A DNA stretch of 64,000 bases from Tychonema sp. LEGE 06208 (GTDB lineage Bacteria; Cyanobacteriota; Cyanobacteriia; Cyanobacteriales; Microcoleaceae). Of this stretch, positions 44,348 to 53,034 are shown piece by piece (position 1 is the first letter of the stretch; the number at the start of each line of letters is the position of its first letter). Where the stretch lies: the NCBI RefSeq assembly GCF_015207505.1, contig NZ_JADEWT010000002.1:62001-126000 (forward strand), read 5' to 3'. The position numbers and the translations under genes are program-made. The notes beneath the pieces were generated by a model. It worked only from the letters and a program-made list of their open reading frames with translations. It searched no databases and was not told where the DNA came from.

Positions 44348-44956
44348 ATGGCAGAAATCACTAAAGAAGAAATGCGCGAACGGCTGGGAAATATAGACCA
44401 GATTCGAGATATAATTTTCGGGGCGCAGCTTAGAGAATACGACAATCGCTTCGATAAAATAGATTCTGAGCTGTCAATGATGCAGCAAGATACCCAAGCT
44501 CGCATCGAACAGATAAAAACAGTTCTATCCGCAGAAATGAAGGTGGCAATTGATTCGTTAGAAAAGAAAGTTAAATCGCTTACCTCAAACACGCAAGAAG
44601 AAAGCGCCGACCTCCGCCAGCAAATCGATCGCCTTAACCGCAAATTCTCCAGCAGCATAGAATCCCTCGACGAAGCGATAGACAATCAAACCAGTTCGAT
44701 TCGCGACGAACTCTCCCAAACCAGAGAGCGACTCTCCGAAGAAACCCGCACTCTGAAAACACAGGTTTTTGAAGAACTCGACCGCCGCTTTTCCATGCTC
44801 AGAGACGTTAAAGTTTCCAGAGATGACATGGCAGAAATTCTGTTTGAACTAGGCATGAGGCTCAAAGGAACAGAATTTGTCCCCGAACTTAAAGGCGTTA
44901 CTGATAATAAATTAAATAACGAATTCTTGTTGCCGGAGCGCCACCACCACGGATAA
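44348..44956 (+). CDS. Coiled-coil protein of the GTPase/OmpA operon (202 aa)
   Basis: Nearly the whole protein is predicted coiled coil (about residues 25-150, with heptads in LRQQIDRLNRKFSSSIESLD), with no signal peptide or membrane helix. The C-terminal 40 residues (ILFELGMRLKGTEFVPELKG) look like a short globular motif. A GAGG site nine bases upstream supports the ATG. The next gene starts 6 bp after its stop, so it is the first gene of a tight operon with an OmpA-domain protein and a small GTPase. It may be a scaffold or effector of the GTPase; this is inference from context only. Confidence 0.85.
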   Translation: MAEITKEEMRERLGNIDQIRDIIFGAQLREYDNRFDKIDSELSMMQQDTQARIEQIKTVLSAEMKVAIDSLEKKVKSLTSNTQEESADLRQQIDRLNRKFSSSIESLDEAIDNQTSSIRDELSQTRERLSEETRTLKTQVFEELDRRFSMLRDVKVSRDDMAEILFELGMRLKGTEFVPELKGVTDNKLNNEFLLPERHHHG

Positions 44957-44962
44957 TCACGC

Positions 44963-47911
44963 ATGGCTTTACCGAAAGAAAATCCAGAAGTTGAAAATCA
45001 GCTAGAGGGTTTTGTTTCTCAACCTGACGAGTCTGCTGCCAGCGCAGCAACCCAGCTAGAACCATTCCTGAATCTGTTACTCGATCTCAAAATTATTGCT
45101 GATTCAAACCAGCAAAGTTCCGATCGCGAAAGTGACAGCAACAGCGAAAACGATCGAGCTGGGGCCCTCGACGGGTTGATGGATTTGTTACCTATTTCCT
45201 CTGCTTCTGCTGAGGAAATTACCACAACTGCTCCCTCAAACACTCAATCTCCCCAATCCGAAGCTGACAGCAACAGCAAAAACCATCGAGCGGCAGCTAC
45301 CGGCGGGTTGATGGATTTGTCAGGTATTTCTCGGCAAGAGCAAGAGGAAATTGCAGCGCAGCAAAATCCCGATTCCGAAAGTCACAGCATCGGCAAAAAA
45401 GCTCAAGCTGGAGCCCTCGGCGGGTTGATGGATTTGTTAGGTATTTCTGAGCGAGAGCAAGAGGAAATTGCAGCGAGCGTCCAGCACAAAACTGCCTCTG
45501 GCGAACCCAAATCTACAAATTTTCCGGCCGTTGCAGGCGAGTCGAAAAGTTGGCTGTTCCCTACTCAAAAACTCAACAGTTCTGAACTGGAAAGAAACTA
45601 TTCCTCAGCTAAAACTATAGATATTTCCGCAGATGTTTCGGAGTTTGAGAGAGAATCGCCTGACTTGACAATTTCAGATTATCCTCAGTACGTACAGGCG
45701 GAAAAATCCCAGGATTTAGACACCGCTTTAGAGGATTTGTCCGATCGCCCAACTCTAGAATCACCCGCAGCAACTAATCCAAATACCGCAGTTCCCGCAC
45801 CTTCACAGCCCTCAGAAAAAATGTATCTAGATGCGGTGGTTGCTTCTGGGCCATCGATGTCAGAATTGCCAGAACAGCCGACACCGATATCGCAGCGATC
45901 GGAAATATTAGGCGAAATTAAACAAGACTTAAATGAAGCCGACAACGCGATGGAAAGGCTGCAAAGTCTGATTTTTGGCTCGCAAATCTCGGATATCGAG
46001 CAAGTCAAAAATCTCCTCGAACAAAACGACTTGCCCGGTGTGCGCCACCTGATGGTAACTATCAACGATAAATTAGGAAAACTCGAACACCAAATCCACG
46101 ATCCCCAAGAACTGATCGCGCTGATGCTGCCTTGGATCGCAGAAATTCTCAGCCGCAAAATTACCGATTCCCGAGAAGAAGTTGTTAACGCGATCGTGCC
46201 AATTATTGATGAAGTAATTAGGGCAAAAACGGTAGAAAACAGGCCAGCAATGAGTTCGGCGATCGCTGAATTGCTCCCAGACGCCCTTGCTCAACAAATA
46301 AAAAATTCGCCACAAGAAATTGCTAAGGCGATCGCCCCAGAAATTGGCATGGCAATTAAAGAGCAAATTCGCCTTGACCAAGAGTCGATCGCCCAAGCCC
46401 TCGCTCCGGAAATGGGCAAAGCGATTACAGCCCAAATACAACTCGAACGAGATGCAATGGTGGATGCCCTCTATCCCGTCATAGGCAATACTATTGCCAG
46501 ATACATGGCAGAAGCTATCAAGACAATCAATGAAAAAGTGTCAAATGCCATGAGCGTGGAAGGAGTGAAGCGCAAAATTCGCTCCAAAGTACAAGGAGTC
46601 TCCGAAGCCGAATTAATCCTCAAAGAATCAGTACCCTTTACCATCCAAGCAGTATTCTTAATTCACAAAGCATCAGGCTTGATAATTTCCGAAGTTCAAA
46701 ACTCCGAAAGTTACCAGTTAGAATCAGAAATGGTAGCAGGAATGCTCACAGCTATTCGCAGCTTTGTCAACGAGTGCATCGTTGTGCCGGGAGAAATTTC
46801 CGAACTCAATCAAATTGAATACGGCGACTCAAAAATTTTGCTAGAAGTAGCGGGATACTGCTACATTGCAGTCGTAATTAAAGGAGAACCGCCAGAATCG
46901 TTCATCAGCAAGCTGCGGAAAACACTTAGTAATCTCATCCTTAATTACGCTAAATTAATTCACGAATTTAACGGCGACCCCGATACTATACCGGAGTCGC
47001 TGCACCCGTTTATCAAAACTTTATTCGACCCCCTGGACAAGGAAAAATCCACAAAACCCCCGCTCGCCCTAGCCGGGATCAGTTTACTCGCCCTCAGCTT
47101 AATCTTAGTACCTTGGGGAATGTATCAGTACCGCCGCAGCATCGACCGCCCCCTGGTAGCAAATGTCGCTTTAGCTTTAGCATCGACGCCAGAATTAGCA
47201 GTTTACCGCTTAAACGCCGACCTTGAGGGCAACACTCTCAAGTTAACCGGAAAATTGCCAAATCCACAATTGCGAGCAAAAGCCGCAAAAATAGCTGCAT
47301 CAACTGTACCAAATCTGAAATTAGACAATCAAATTATCGCTGTAGATGTACCTCCCGACCCTGTTTTGGCAGCCGGCGAGGTGCAGCGGATTACCGCTGT
47401 TTTGAACCAGAGGGAGGGCGTTTCTATTTCTACTCGCTATGGCGATCGCAAAGTGACAGTAGAGGGCACAGTCACCGACGCTGCAGACTCACAAAAAATT
47501 GCTCAGTCCCTAAAACAAATTCCCGGCGTTCAGTCCGTCGTCAGCACGATTAAACTAGATCCGCTCCAGATCTTAAGCCGCATCTACTTTGACCCAGGAA
47601 CGGCGAAATTAGACTCAACATCCGCAGAAATCATCGCCAGTGTCAAAAAATTCATGGATCGATATCCTCAAAAACATATTAAGATAATTGGGCACAGCGA
47701 TGGAACTGGCGAAGTTGCCACAAATCAACGGCTGTCGCTCCGGCGTGCCGCAGCAGTGCGAGATGCTTTGGTGCGGCAAGGTGCAGACCCCAAGCGCCTC
47801 CAAACGATCGCCAGCCCCAATTCACCCGACGGCGTAGAACCCAATCAACCGCTACTTTTGAGCAGATGCGTGATATTTGAACCAATAACTAAGACCGCAA
47901 ACGGCAAATAA
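44963..47911 (+). CDS. Large OmpA-domain membrane protein with BON repeats and a putative roadblock/longin-like domain
   Basis: In this 982-residue protein, residues 1-310 are acidic and disordered, with three imperfect repeats of the GGLMDLLGIS-x-EEI type (about 67, 114, 153). A helical region (about 320-540) has internal repeats such as IAKAIAPEIGMAIKEQI. Next is a compact alpha/beta segment (about 545-685; QAVFLIHKASGLIISEV, MVAGMLTAIRSF, YCYIAVVIKG) whose pattern recalls roadblock/longin domains. One membrane helix (about 699-720), two BON domains (about 728-860) and a C-terminal OmpA peptidoglycan-binding domain (IYFDPGTAKLD, GHSDGTGEVATNQRLSLRRA, about 868-975) follow. The N-terminal 700 residues are thus cytosolic and the rest periplasmic. 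It is tightly linked to a small GTPase gene (2-bp gap). The protein could anchor GTPase signalling to the cell wall. The roadblock assignment is tentative. Confidence 0.85.
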   Translation: MALPKENPEVENQLEGFVSQPDESAASAATQLEPFLNLLLDLKIIADSNQQSSDRESDSNSENDRAGALDGLMDLLPISSASAEEITTTAPSNTQSPQSEADSNSKNHRAAATGGLMDLSGISRQEQEEIAAQQNPDSESHSIGKKAQAGALGGLMDLLGISEREQEEIAASVQHKTASGEPKSTNFPAVAGESKSWLFPTQKLNSSELERNYSSAKTIDISADVSEFERESPDLTISDYPQYVQAEKSQDLDTALEDLSDRPTLESPAATNPNTAVPAPSQPSEKMYLDAVVASGPSMSELPEQPTPISQRSEILGEIKQDLNEADNAMERLQSLIFGSQISDIEQVKNLLEQNDLPGVRHLMVTINDKLGKLEHQIHDPQELIALMLPWIAEILSRKITDSREEVVNAIVPIIDEVIRAKTVENRPAMSSAIAELLPDALAQQIKNSPQEIAKAIAPEIGMAIKEQIRLDQESIAQALAPEMGKAITAQIQLERDAMVDALYPVIGNTIARYMAEAIKTINEKVSNAMSVEGVKRKIRSKVQGVSEAELILKESVPFTIQAVFLIHKASGLIISEVQNSESYQLESEMVAGMLTAIRSFVNECIVVPGEISELNQIEYGDSKILLEVAGYCYIAVVIKGEPPESFISKLRKTLSNLILNYAKLIHEFNGDPDTIPESLHPFIKTLFDPLDKEKSTKPPLALAGISLLALSLILVPWGMYQYRRSIDRPLVANVALALASTPELAVYRLNADLEGNTLKLTGKLPNPQLRAKAAKIAASTVPNLKLDNQIIAVDVPPDPVLAAGEVQRITAVLNQREGVSISTRYGDRKVTVEGTVTDAADSQKIAQSLKQIPGVQSVVSTIKLDPLQILSRIYFDPGTAKLDSTSAEIIASVKKFMDRYPQKHIKIIGHSDGTGEVATNQRLSLRRAAAVRDALVRQGADPKRLQTIASPNSPDGVEPNQPLLLSRCVIFEPITKTANGK

Positions 47912-47913
47912 TT

Positions 47914-48450
47914 ATGTCAGTTACTATATCTAAAAAAATGTGCATGATCGGCGACTTTGGCGTGGGCAAAACCAGCTTGATCCGCCGTTTTGTCGATCGG
48001 CAATTCAGCGACGAGTACCTCTCCACTGTCGGAGTCAAAATTTCCAGCAAAATTATTACATTAGAAAATATAAAACAGCAGGCAAATATCACAGCCAAGT
48101 TGCTGATTTGGGACTTAGAAGGGCATACAAAATTCAAAGGAATTGCACCGACTTACTTGCAAGGAGCTAGCGGCGTTTTAATCGTTGCCGATGTCAGCCG
48201 AACCGAAACAGTTGAGCGAATCTCCGAACACATTAAGCTTTTTTCTTCAGTCAATCCCAAAGGGTTAATTATCATCGCCTTGAACAAAATAGACTTGATA
48301 GACGAAGAAAAATTGGCAATGCTAGTGGAAATCTCCCACGCGATCGCTAAAGACAAAGTAATAGCAGTTTACACCACATCTGCCAAAACAGGCCAAGACG
48401 TTGACGAAATTTTCCACAAACTAGCTTACACAATGGTAGAACAAACATGA
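47914..48450 (+). CDS. Ras-like small GTPase
   Basis: This 178-residue protein has all five G motifs: P-loop GDFGVGKTS (13-21), a switch I threonine (LSTVGVK), switch II WDLEGHTKF in place of DTAGQ, NKID (about 125-128) and SAKTG. The catalytic Gln is replaced by His (DLEGH), so intrinsic hydrolysis may be slow and depend on a partner. No prenylation motif or membrane anchor is present. Bacterial small GTPases such as MglA control polarity and motility with a roadblock-domain GAP; here such a domain may lie in the preceding OmpA protein. The gene starts 2 bp after that gene and its stop overlaps the next start (ATGA). Translational coupling across three genes is therefore likely. Confidence 0.93.
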   Translation: MSVTISKKMCMIGDFGVGKTSLIRRFVDRQFSDEYLSTVGVKISSKIITLENIKQQANITAKLLIWDLEGHTKFKGIAPTYLQGASGVLIVADVSRTETVERISEHIKLFSSVNPKGLIIIALNKIDLIDEEKLAMLVEISHAIAKDKVIAVYTTSAKTGQDVDEIFHKLAYTMVEQT

Positions 48451-49997
48451 ACCCCCTTTTTAAGAAACTCTTGGGCCCGCGACAAACAGAGTATCTGGTA
48501 GTAAATCACAACTTCATCATTCAGGAAACCTCCGCCGAAGCACAACATTATGCCGATACTCCCGGCGACGCGCTCCCCGGCACAGATGCTCGCATCAGTT
48601 TTCCCGAACTGATTGGTATTGAAAATATCCTGATTTCCATCGCAATGGGACGGCGGCCGAGTTTTGAACTCAAAGGTATCGCTCGGTTTGCCGACAACAA
48701 CCACCCTTTATACTTCGATATGTTGGCAGTAGAACATGAAAACGAACAAGGTGTGGCAAATAATTTGCTCATTTTGATTGAAGATGCCACCGAAAAAATG
48801 GTAATGAAGCAATCATTAATTCAGAGAGCAAATGAAGCTAATCTGTTGGTAAGCGCCCTAGCAGCTTCTAAAGATTATATAGATAAAGTTATTAGCTCGA
48901 TGGGCGATGCTTTGTTAGTGACAACAACCTTAGGAATTATCAAAACAGTCAATCAATCGGCACAAGGGTTATTTGGGTATAGTGAATCAGAATTAATCGA
49001 CCATCCACTCTCCAAAATAGTAGTCGAAGAAACCTTGCTTTACCAAGCTCGCCATCGCTATATTTTGTCTCAAAAAGAGCTGCTCCGAGAACTGGAAGTA
49101 GTCTGTACTACCAAAATAGGAGAAGAAATTTGGGTAGAATTTTCCTGTTCGGCAATTCAGACAGAATTACAAGGACTTTACGATTTCATCTATATCGGCA
49201 GAAACATCACAGAACGCAAACAACAAGATATAGAAATTCGTAGTTCTTTGGTAAAAGAGCAAGAACTAAGACAAATAAAATCTCGTTTTTTTTCAATGCT
49301 CGCTCACGAATTCGGCAATCCTTTAAATACAGTATTATTTGCTACTCAAATCCTCAAAGAATACGGCGACTCAATCACCCACGCAGAACAACAAGAATAT
49401 CTCGGACACCTTAAATCAGCATCTAAACACATGGCTCACCTATTAGATGATGTGCGGTTGCTCAGCAGCGCCGAAGCCGGAAAACTCCAATTCAATCCCG
49501 CACCAGTTGACTTGCTAAAATTTTGCAGCGAATTAGTAGAATCAATTAAAATTAGTGAGGGACAATATCGTAAAATTAACTTTATTTGCCGACCATCAAC
49601 TCCGCCTGCGAAAAAAACCGATCGCGATTCGGAGAAAACACAACCCGATCCCGAACTCGATCCCAAATTGCTGCGGCACATCTTGACAAACTTGCTTTCT
49701 AATGCAGTAAAATACTCACCTACCGAAAGCAATATTTATTTTCAATTAAATTGTTATCATGAAAAAGCTACATTTAAAATTCAAGACGCAGGCATTGGCA
49801 TTCCGATAGAAGACCAAGAACAACTATTTGAATCCTATTACCGGGCCCAAAATGTCGGTAAAATCCCCGGTACAGGACTGGGTTTATCTATAGTCAAGCA
49901 GTGTGTAGACTTGCACGGAGGTCAAATCGAATTTTCCAGCGAGACAGGGTTAGGCACTACCTTTATAGTCACAATTCCATTTTACAAACAAAAATAA
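48447..49997 (+). CDS. PAS sensor histidine kinase of the GTPase operon
   Basis: This is a 516-residue cytosolic kinase. An N-terminal PAS-like input domain (about 1-118, starting MNPLFKKLLGPRQTEYLVV) precedes a canonical PAS (about 148-268), then HisKA with His287 in LAHEFGNPLN and HATPase_c with NLLSNAVKYS, DAGIGIP and GTGLGLSI. The H-box has Gly-Asn where Arg-Thr is usual, a variant seen in other cyanobacterial kinases. The ATG overlaps the GTPase stop codon by ATGA, indicating translational coupling. The N-terminal 260 residues are clearly paralogous to those of the cyclase encoded next. No response regulator follows directly. A shared input signal for the GTPase, this kinase and the cyclase is plausible. 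Confidence 0.93.
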   Translation: MNPLFKKLLGPRQTEYLVVNHNFIIQETSAEAQHYADTPGDALPGTDARISFPELIGIENILISIAMGRRPSFELKGIARFADNNHPLYFDMLAVEHENEQGVANNLLILIEDATEKMVMKQSLIQRANEANLLVSALAASKDYIDKVISSMGDALLVTTTLGIIKTVNQSAQGLFGYSESELIDHPLSKIVVEETLLYQARHRYILSQKELLRELEVVCTTKIGEEIWVEFSCSAIQTELQGLYDFIYIGRNITERKQQDIEIRSSLVKEQELRQIKSRFFSMLAHEFGNPLNTVLFATQILKEYGDSITHAEQQEYLGHLKSASKHMAHLLDDVRLLSSAEAGKLQFNPAPVDLLKFCSELVESIKISEGQYRKINFICRPSTPPAKKTDRDSEKTQPDPELDPKLLRHILTNLLSNAVKYSPTESNIYFQLNCYHEKATFKIQDAGIGIPIEDQEQLFESYYRAQNVGKIPGTGLGLSIVKQCVDLHGGQIEFSSETGLGTTFIVTIPFYKQK

Positions 49998-50229: not shown

Positions 50230-53034
50230 ATGAACACCCTGTTAAAAAAGCTGTTGGTTCCCCACCACCTGGAGTACCTAGCACTGGATAAAGACTTTTT
50301 AATCCAAGAGACATCTTTCCAAGTGCAGCGCTTCGCGGACTTTCCCGAAGAAGTAACGGCCGGCAACGATGTGCGGCTTCCTTTTCCTGAATTGGTGGGA
50401 ACTGAAGAAATTTTAATCGATATTTTTGAAGGGCGGTTGCCAAACTTTGAATTTAAAGCGATAACTCGGGTACTAGAAAATGGCTCGCGGCTTTATTTTG
50501 ATATGTATATCGTCGAATTCAGCAATGACGATAATTATCAGAGATTAATTATATTTTTTGAAGACGTAACCGACAGGATGGGTTTAGAACAAACTCTAGT
50601 CCAAGCTACCAATGAAATGAATATTTTATTGAGTACCTTAGCCGCTACTAATAATTATGTTGAAAAAATTATTACTTCAATTGCTGAAGTTTTGTTGGTG
50701 ACAACTGCATCGGGAAAAATCAAAAAAATCAATCAAGCGACTCAAGATTTATTCGGTTACAGCGAATCAGAATTAGTAGGACAGCAAATAAACGCTCTTG
50801 CTGCTGATGGTGAATCTTTGCAAGCAGTCAGCCAACAGCAGTCTCAATCATCTCCAACCAATGTCGAAGTAGTTTGCACGGCAAAAACCGGAGAAAAGTT
50901 CACAGTTGCTTTTTCCTGTACGGCAATTCCGAGTGAAATTCAAGGAATTTCTCAAACAAGGGGCGCCCTCCAAGATTTCGTGTACATCGGCCGCGACGTT
51001 ACAGATAGAGAGCGAGCCCGCAAGCGAAAACTAGCTCAGTACGTCACCACTCGTATCCTGTCTACATCCGAAACAATCAAAAAAGCTCTAACAGCAATTC
51101 TTCCGGTAATTTGTGATAGTTTGGGATGGGATACCGCCGAACTTTGGATGCCGGAAGCGGGCGAAAAACTGCTGTCAGGAAGTAAGAGAATAACTGCGGT
51201 TTCCGACCCCAATTTGCTGCGCTGCCTGGTCAGTTGGAGAAAACGATCGGTTTCTATCCCTAAATTTGCCGAATTTGGCGAACAAATGACCTGTGAGTTG
51301 GGGGAAGGATTGCCCGGTATCGTTTGGGCTAGCGGTTCCCCTCAGTGGATTGCAGATGTCACAAAAAGTGATATTTTTTTGCGCCGAGAAATCGCTGCAA
51401 TTGAAGGACTGCACGGAGCTTTTGCCTTCCCTATTTGGGGGGATTACGAGCAGGAAACTTCGGAAAAGTCTGTGTTGGGAGTGATGACTTTTTTTAGCTG
51501 TGAAGTGCGGAGTTTTGATGAAGATTTGCTCCAAATAATGGGGGCAATCGGCAGTCAACTCGGTCAATTTATCAAGCGGAAACAAGCTGAAATAGCCTTG
51601 CGGGACAGCGAAGAACAACTGCGAGATTTATTTGAAAATGCTACTGATTTAATTCAAAGTATTGGAGCTGACGGTCATTTTTTGTATGTAAATCGGGCTT
51701 GGCGGGAAACTCTGGGCTACAGCGAAGCAGAAATTGCTGAAATGAGTGTTTTTGATATTATTCATCCCAATAGTTCCCCTGAGTCTCTGGATATATTATA
51801 TCAAGCTATCAGTAAAAATGACTTTAATGAAGATACATTTTATCCCGATTCTATCGAAGTAATATTTATCACGAAATCTTCTGAATTAATTTTGCTGGAA
51901 GGTAGCATAAGCTGTAAATTTTCGGAAGGTTCGCTAGTAGCGATTCGCGCTATTTTGCGAGATATTACTGCTCGAAAAATGGCAGAAGATGCCCTGGCAC
52001 AATCGGTGTCTTTGCTGCAAGCAACCTTTGATTCTACGGCTGACGGTATTTTAGCTATTGACAGGAACGGAAAAATAGTCAGTTTCAATCGGGAATTTGT
52101 GGAAATGTGGGGGATACCTAATGAAGTGATGGCGCTGCGAGACGATGCTACAACGATCGCTTTTGTGCTGAACCAACTCAAAGATCCCCAAGGATTCCAA
52201 GACAGAATAGAATCGCTTTACGATCAGCCAGAAGCCGAAAGTTTCGATTTGTTGGAATTTCAAGATGGCAGATTTTTTGAACGCTATTCGGAACCGCAGC
52301 GGCTGGGAGATAAAATTATCGGCAGAGTCTGGAGTTACCACGATATTACGGAACGCAAGCAAGCGGAAGATGCCCTGCGGGAAGAACAAGCAAAATCAGA
52401 AAAGTTGCTGTTAAATATTTTGCCGAAGGCAATAGCAGAACGCCTCAAACAAAACGAAACTACTATTGCTGAATATTTTCCTGAAGTGACTGTTTTGTTT
52501 GCAGATATTGTGGGGTTTACAGCTTTGTCTAGCACGATGAATCCGATCGCTCTGGTGGAACTCCTCAATAAAGTTTTTTCAAGATTCGATTTGTTGTGCG
52601 AACAGCACGGCTTAGAAAAAATCAAGACAATTGGCGACGCATATATGGTGGTGGGAGGGCTGCCGAATCCCAGGGCAGATCACGCTGAGGCGATCGCCAA
52701 ACTGGCTCTAGATATGCAAACAGAAATGGCTCGGTTTCATCAGAAGAATCACAAATTTTTTAGCATCCGCATCGGTATCCACAGCGGCCCGGTTGTGGCC
52801 GGAGTTATTGGCATCAAAAAGTTTATTTATGATTTGTGGGGCGACACGGTAAATATTGCTTCCCGAATGGAGTCTCACGGTATATCTTGGCGGATTCAAG
52901 TCAGCGAAACTACTTATAAGTTATTGGAACACCAATATTTATTTCAGGAACGGGGAATTATTCAAGTTAAAGGAAAAGGGGGAATGAAAACTTATCTGCT
53001 CGTTAGGAAAAAAAAATTAGTCAGTAGTCAGTAG
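50230..53034 (+). CDS. PAS/GAF-domain adenylate cyclase
   Basis: This 934-residue cytosolic class III cyclase starts MNTLLKKLLVPHHLEYLAL, and its first 260 residues match the input region of the preceding kinase (same PAS-like domain, same spacer, same PAS). A GAF domain (about 278-455), two further PAS domains (about 460-590 and 595-712) and a helical linker (NILPKAIAERLKQNE) lead to the catalytic domain (about 750-925). Metal ligands Asp759 and Asp803 are present. Lys799 and Asp868 (YDLWGDTVN) form the adenine-specifying pair, so cAMP is the expected product. It probably belongs functionally to the GTPase operon. Its last residues (SSQ) and TAG stop are heptamer-repeat sequence. Confidence 0.94.
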   Translation: MNTLLKKLLVPHHLEYLALDKDFLIQETSFQVQRFADFPEEVTAGNDVRLPFPELVGTEEILIDIFEGRLPNFEFKAITRVLENGSRLYFDMYIVEFSNDDNYQRLIIFFEDVTDRMGLEQTLVQATNEMNILLSTLAATNNYVEKIITSIAEVLLVTTASGKIKKINQATQDLFGYSESELVGQQINALAADGESLQAVSQQQSQSSPTNVEVVCTAKTGEKFTVAFSCTAIPSEIQGISQTRGALQDFVYIGRDVTDRERARKRKLAQYVTTRILSTSETIKKALTAILPVICDSLGWDTAELWMPEAGEKLLSGSKRITAVSDPNLLRCLVSWRKRSVSIPKFAEFGEQMTCELGEGLPGIVWASGSPQWIADVTKSDIFLRREIAAIEGLHGAFAFPIWGDYEQETSEKSVLGVMTFFSCEVRSFDEDLLQIMGAIGSQLGQFIKRKQAEIALRDSEEQLRDLFENATDLIQSIGADGHFLYVNRAWRETLGYSEAEIAEMSVFDIIHPNSSPESLDILYQAISKNDFNEDTFYPDSIEVIFITKSSELILLEGSISCKFSEGSLVAIRAILRDITARKMAEDALAQSVSLLQATFDSTADGILAIDRNGKIVSFNREFVEMWGIPNEVMALRDDATTIAFVLNQLKDPQGFQDRIESLYDQPEAESFDLLEFQDGRFFERYSEPQRLGDKIIGRVWSYHDITERKQAEDALREEQAKSEKLLLNILPKAIAERLKQNETTIAEYFPEVTVLFADIVGFTALSSTMNPIALVELLNKVFSRFDLLCEQHGLEKIKTIGDAYMVVGGLPNPRADHAEAIAKLALDMQTEMARFHQKNHKFFSIRIGIHSGPVVAGVIGIKKFIYDLWGDTVNIASRMESHGISWRIQVSETTYKLLEHQYLFQERGIIQVKGKGGMKTYLLVRKKKLVSSQ

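Follow-up and report, generated by a model that had tools for sequence, protein, structure and literature searches.

A predicted roadblock/longin-fold domain in the OmpA protein encoded beside a Ras-like GTPase in a cyanobacterial Group 1 Rup operon

Introduction

The operon of the Group 1 Rup GTPases was described by Wuichet and Sogaard-Andersen (2014; PMC4316618), and these GTPases were reported to be very similar to the eukaryotic Rab, Ras, Rho and Ran proteins. The Rup family was separated from MglA partly by the absence of a roadblock partner: no Rup gene was found coupled to the roadblock partner MglB, and the cytoplasmic domain of the OmpA protein of the operon was given no assignment (PMC4316618). 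The same authors hypothesized that an invariant glutamine of the effector is supplied to the GTPase in trans (PMC4316618). In the accessible literature, we came across no biochemical study of a Rup protein.

MglB donates no catalytic residue: its dimer positions the switch loops of MglA (GAP activity) and its C-terminal helix promotes nucleotide exchange (GEF activity) (PMC11016934). In the MglA family, a threonine replaces the conserved G3 aspartate (PMC3000849). More generally, the orientation in which roadblock/longin dimers bind GTPases is conserved from prokaryotes to eukaryotes (PMC10933270). In roadblock domains, the sheet is flanked by one helix at each terminus, whereas longin domains carry two C-terminal helices and none at the N-terminus (PMC10933270).

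Here, we analyzed a stretch of 64,000 nucleotides of Tychonema sp. LEGE 06208 (contig NZ_JADEWT010000002.1, positions 62,001 to 126,000; hereafter, the window), in which a preliminary description had proposed a roadblock/longin domain inside an OmpA protein encoded next to a small GTPase.

Results

The window is part of a cyanobacterial contig whose closest relatives are Tychonema and Microcoleus. Five genes lie on the same (+) strand around the domain. The first gene of the conserved set (44348..44956) encodes a coiled-coil protein of 202 aa, which is found upstream in most relatives and whose Pfam matches are of the coiled-coil type only. It is followed by the gene of the OmpA protein (44963-47911; 982 aa from the translation of the open reading frame), by the gene of a small GTPase of 178 aa (47914..48450) and by the gene of a PAS-histidine kinase (48447..49997; Pfam HisKA/HATPase), whose start codon overlaps the stop codon of the GTPase gene. 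About 230 nt after the kinase gene begins the gene of a second output protein (50230..53034); reading its translation by eye, this protein is PAS-rich, its N-terminus resembles that of the kinase and its C-terminus reads like an adenylate/guanylate cyclase.

The GTPase is Ras-like (Pfam Ras, 4.4e-29) and its G3 motif reads DLEGH. The G3 aspartate (D67) is present in 69 of the 69 aligned GTPases, which fits the definition of Group 1 Rup and not that of MglA. Position 71, which stands in place of the G3 glutamine, is occupied by H (49 sequences), S (10), Q (5), N (3) or R (2). The absence of the catalytic glutamine noted in the preliminary description is thus true of this protein and usual in the family, but it is not general since five of the 69 sequences possess it. 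The gene neighborhood of Group 1 Rup (coiled-coil protein, transmembrane OmpA protein and output protein) was found in the window and in its relatives, and the N-terminal region of the output proteins contains the expected glutamines: across 95 copies from 69 loci, Q126 is conserved in 94 and Q122 in 92. Judging from the G3 residues, the neighborhood and the effector glutamine, the operon of the window is a Group 1 Rup system. The gene cluster has therefore been known since 2014 (PMC4316618) and is not new; it is the roadblock/longin assignment that appears to be new, and our search of open-licence papers returned no earlier report of it for this domain.

The two glutamines raise an alternative in which the N-terminal region of the effector is the GTPase-activating partner and provides an invariant glutamine in trans, with the OmpA protein's domain serving only as an anchor or as an input module. 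Their near-invariance and the scarcity of the G3 glutamine among the GTPases are both in line with this explanation. In the kinase, this region (48450-48857, a domain common to Rup effectors as defined by our N-terminal domain profile) was predicted by AlphaFold2 to adopt a PAS fold, with PAS proteins as Foldseek matches, and Q122 and Q126 lie in the long helix that comes after it. Such a position would be usual for coiled coils that transmit signals, not for catalytic loops, and we consider the alternative improbable; it would also be compatible with a platform role of the OmpA protein's domain. In our view, the roadblock/longin-fold domain of the OmpA protein is a second and better candidate partner of the GTPase than the effector glutamine.

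Residues ~548-688 of the OmpA protein are a conserved domain (46604..47026). We searched for relatives in one genome per species across 84,980 species, a strategy that reaches close relatives only; 88 were found and 80 were retained, all of them in cyanobacterial assemblies except for one record filed as Gracilibacteria. Along the segment of the domain, 61 relatives can be aligned with a mean column identity of 61%, and conservation among relatives is low in the N-terminal third of the protein. Ahead of the domain lies a helical region (residues 396-520; 46148..46522) made of about five repeats of 23 residues with the pattern A-x-x-P-x-x-G-x-A-I-x-x-Q-I; the count of self-matches is highest at period 23 (27 matches, against 17 for the runner-up).

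More divergent members of the domain family, 21-28% identical to the domain of the window, were found in a class of five genomes (L111-L115) and in rhizobial plasmid proteins (L148 and L149). The rhizobial proteins are 26-28% identical and retain the same gene order, which in Mesorhizobium is small protein, OmpA protein, GTPase and cyclase. All these divergent members have kept N3, E30, F45-L46-I47, G52-L53, L75, A77, F81, G121 and G151 (domain numbering, to which 520 is added to obtain the protein numbering). As a candidate arginine finger we considered R17/K18, which is invariant in the main class, yet all that the divergent classes keep of it is the basic character of position 18. For this reason, we do not claim any catalytic residue.

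The structure of residues 521-712 was predicted as a single chain with AlphaFold2 from 61 sequences. The mean pLDDT is 71.8, and ten-residue blocks of the core range from 72 to 91 except for the loop 601-620 (~59). The predicted order of elements is H E E H E E E H H, that is, a five-stranded core (residues 560-640) whose strands 2 and 3 are separated by one helix and which has further helices on its flanks, as in roadblock/longin domains. The beta-beta-alpha-beta-beta-beta-alpha order read from the sequence by the preliminary description was recovered in this model: strands 560-568 and 574-579, helix 588-606, strands 616-620, 623-630 and 633-640, and helix 645-667. The strings on which it was based (QAVFLIHKASGLIISEV, MVAGMLTAIRSF and YCYIAVVIKG) sit at residues ~562-641, inside the proposed limits. 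Additional helices were predicted on the N-terminal (548-556, low confidence) and C-terminal (680-688) sides of the core. The helix that would tell a roadblock from a longin domain is the N-terminal one, which is poorly resolved in the model; helices were predicted both before the core and, at 645-667 and 680-688, after it.

We compared the model to the PDB using Foldseek and obtained 20 matches at E<=1e-3, all 20 of them to proteins or complexes of the longin/roadblock group. These include Ykt6, Sec22b, AP sigma chains, zeta-COP and chains of Rag and Ragulator (Rag + LAMTOR). The best target-normalized TM-score was obtained for Sec22b (0.76, with an rmsd of 2.7 A); query-normalized TM-scores of the top 20 are moderate (0.33-0.53). 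MglC of Myxococcus ranks 28th in the list. An independent library of viral proteins gave named matches headed by a longin protein and synaptobrevins. As a control, the N-terminus of the kinase was submitted to the same pipeline and yielded the PAS fold mentioned above (pLDDT 85.6), which indicates that longin/roadblock is not the generic answer of the pipeline for alpha/beta sensor domains. Structure prediction and Foldseek thus returned the fold first proposed for this domain and no unrelated one.

At the sequence level, the relationship is faint. Pfam yielded nothing significant at residues 545-685, and neither Pfam and NCBIfam scans nor an hmmsearch of PDB sequences gave a roadblock match for the domain. 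The domain gives no match to Robl_LC7 (Pfam PF03259) above the curated cut-off, and Robl_LC7 stayed below threshold when the family was enlarged with the divergent Nostoc-type and rhizobial members. We used thirty Robl_LC7 proteins of the same phylum, all recognized by Pfam, as a comparison set. Searching with the domain profile detected several Robl_LC7 proteins at E-values of 0.0015-0.04, and these were the only weak matches that were full-length and colinear; weak matches to coiled-coil proteins covered the C-terminal helix only and were rejected as helix bias. The profile-profile alignment of the domain against Robl_LC7 (hhalign; columns 39-129 against 27-116) scored 28.8 (P = 4.9e-4), above all 50 unrelated windows used as controls (best score 24.4). 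Across four pairs of profiles, P ranged from 3.6e-4 to 4.9e-4 for three and was 4.5e-3 for the fourth, and none of 200 column shuffles reached the observed score in any of the four pairings. Profile comparison, which had been suggested as a check of the original proposal, therefore points to Robl_LC7 (P ~4e-4), but the probability assigned by hhalign is only 32-37% at best. Taken alone, three of the four Robl_LC7 subgroups, including the MglB-like one, show no signal in hhalign. We consider this profile signal as a weak lead towards homology rather than a proof.

It could be argued that this alpha/beta domain is unrelated to roadblock/longin proteins and that its likeness to them stems from a model of moderate quality; the moderate pLDDT and TM-scores and the lack of any Pfam or PDB sequence match leave some room for this view. 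We regard it as very improbable, given that the 20 best Foldseek matches all belong to one fold group and that the profile signal favors the same family. Together, the AlphaFold2 and Foldseek results, the viral library and the profile shuffles suggest that the fold of the domain very probably belongs to the roadblock/longin group.

Immediately C-terminal to the domain, hydropathy identifies a single transmembrane helix (residues ~701-721; 47063..47125), followed by a BON domain (47390..47560; Pfam BON, 8.9e-10) and by an OmpA peptidoglycan-binding domain (47585..47812; Pfam OmpA, 4.1e-15). This placement of the helix right after the domain recurs in 89 of 90 relatives, the most hydrophobic segment starting at the C-terminal end of the domain, and a signal-like N-terminus was found in none of the 90. 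OmpA domains have an established function beyond the membrane, where they hold peptidoglycan. Because a transmembrane helix follows the domain, no signal peptide precedes it and the OmpA and BON domains lie past the membrane, the domain would be cytosolic, on the same side as the GTPase.

We further analyzed the association between the domain and the GTPase. In 64 of the 80 loci, the GTPase gene begins no more than 350 nt downstream with the same orientation, and in three others it lies within 3 kb; it is absent in 12, and one contig ends too early. Nine of the 12 loci without GTPase (L063, L066, L069, L070, L074-L077 and L080) represent a paralogue class. These paralogues, together with one encoded in G000:C13 (L116:7734-11345, - strand), are longer OmpA proteins (~1200 aa) that keep the domain and have no GTPase neighbor. 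Residues Q42, H48, E57, K104 and Y112 (domain numbering) are common in the class linked to the GTPase and mostly replaced in the unlinked set.

Profile searches of 291 cyanobacterial genomes identified the domain in 34 and the GTPase in 34, and both in 33. Presence and absence of the two agree within the genera g3, g8, g15 and g17, which indicates that the match does not reflect a single inheritance event. G095, G110 and G185 each contain two linked systems, with two domains and two GTPases. In G033 and G042, a single domain stands against two GTPases, the second of which has an effector but no adjoining domain. G189 contains a domain of the paralogue class only and no GTPase, and G099 a divergent GTPase with an effector and no domain. 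Among plasmids, the five records with the GTPase include all four with the domain, the fifth being a Legionella Rab-like protein. In the genome of the window itself, a single stand-alone Ras-type GTPase scores above 50 bits, and no Robl_LC7 protein was found with Pfam.

Two other arrangements were observed. In G072, the four-gene set is split over separate contigs (L183 and L184), with the GTPase and the effector on one side and the coiled-coil and OmpA proteins on the other, and both parts are retained. Three orphan Rup-type GTPases (L181:6446-6976, L182:6468-6998 and L180:6058-6555, - strand) possibly have an adjoining effector and have no OmpA-roadblock gene beside them.

The functional tie to the neighboring GTPase that had been proposed is backed by both operon linkage and genomic co-occurrence. 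Many longin domains, such as those of SNAREs, do not act on GTPases. The domain might have the roadblock/longin fold and merely dimerize or scaffold the OmpA protein, for instance with the coiled-coil protein, without contacting the GTPase, the genes traveling together as one operon. Paralogues without a GTPase neighbor do retain the same conserved helix and hairpin, and certain members of the roadblock/longin group play no role in GTPase function (PMC10933270). Nevertheless, this explanation seems unlikely to us: the GTPase is found in nearly every genome with the domain, and G072 has kept both genes although they lie apart. We find it likely that the domain acts directly on the GTPase.

Discussion

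We propose that the OmpA protein is a membrane-anchored and peptidoglycan-linked partner of the neighboring Ras-like GTPase, which it would bind and regulate through its roadblock/longin-fold domain; we hold this explanation as a whole to be reasonably likely. In the periplasm, the C-terminal BON and OmpA domains would stand with the OmpA domain holding peptidoglycan. One transmembrane helix would span the inner membrane and place the roadblock/longin-fold domain, probably a dimer, just inside. There, the domain would bind the GTPase, recruit it to the envelope and set its nucleotide state, and the active GTPase would then act on the histidine kinase of the same operon at its PAS N-terminus and probably on the cyclase at the corresponding region. 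Our first choice for the action of the domain would be that of a platform recruiting the GTPase to the envelope, in preference to a GAP or a GEF, because anchoring to the membrane and the wall is the constant feature. A broader view, which we advance tentatively and with more doubt than confidence, is a transmembrane relay in which the periplasmic OmpA and BON domains read the state of the cell wall and pass it to the roadblock-fold regulator on the same polypeptide, then to the Rab-like GTPase and finally to the histidine kinase and the cyclase, so that Rup would use roadblock partners like MglA and Rag do.

Rup proteins are the prokaryotic GTPases nearest to Ras, Rab and Rho. The predicted fold and the co-inheritance suggest that a bacterial Ras-like family thought to be partnerless has its missing partner in this domain. 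If true, a roadblock/longin domain hidden in the neighbor of Rup removes this distinction between Rup and MglA, and the partnership of a Ras-like GTPase with a roadblock platform would be common to both prokaryotic families. The question of the Rup GAP would also gain a concrete candidate with exact residues, and a regulator anchored in the membrane and the peptidoglycan would connect the state of the cell wall to a Ras-type switch.

The operon shares with the described Group 1 Rup systems a coiled-coil protein, an OmpA protein with a domain and a transmembrane helix, a Ras-like GTPase without the G3 glutamine and an output protein with a glutamine in its N-terminal region; it differs in that the domain is here assigned the roadblock/longin fold, which was not the case in the 2014 paper (PMC4316618). 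As in the MglA/MglB systems of Myxococcus and Thermus, a roadblock-fold partner is encoded beside a small Ras-like GTPase. However, MglB is a separate soluble protein, whereas the fold is here embedded in a protein of 982 residues anchored in the membrane and the peptidoglycan; unlike MglB, the domain is not recognized by Pfam Robl_LC7, and the GTPase retains the G3 aspartate that MglA lacks. The conservons of actinobacteria (CvnA-D) similarly combine a GTPase, a roadblock protein and a histidine kinase in one operon, but in the conservons it is the kinase that sits in the membrane and the roadblock protein that is free, whereas here the membrane protein is the one with the roadblock fold. Finally, Ragulator/LAMTOR with the Rag GTPases is also a membrane-anchored roadblock platform for small GTPases, although it is eukaryotic, is anchored by p18, is built of separate roadblock subunits and has no link to peptidoglycan.
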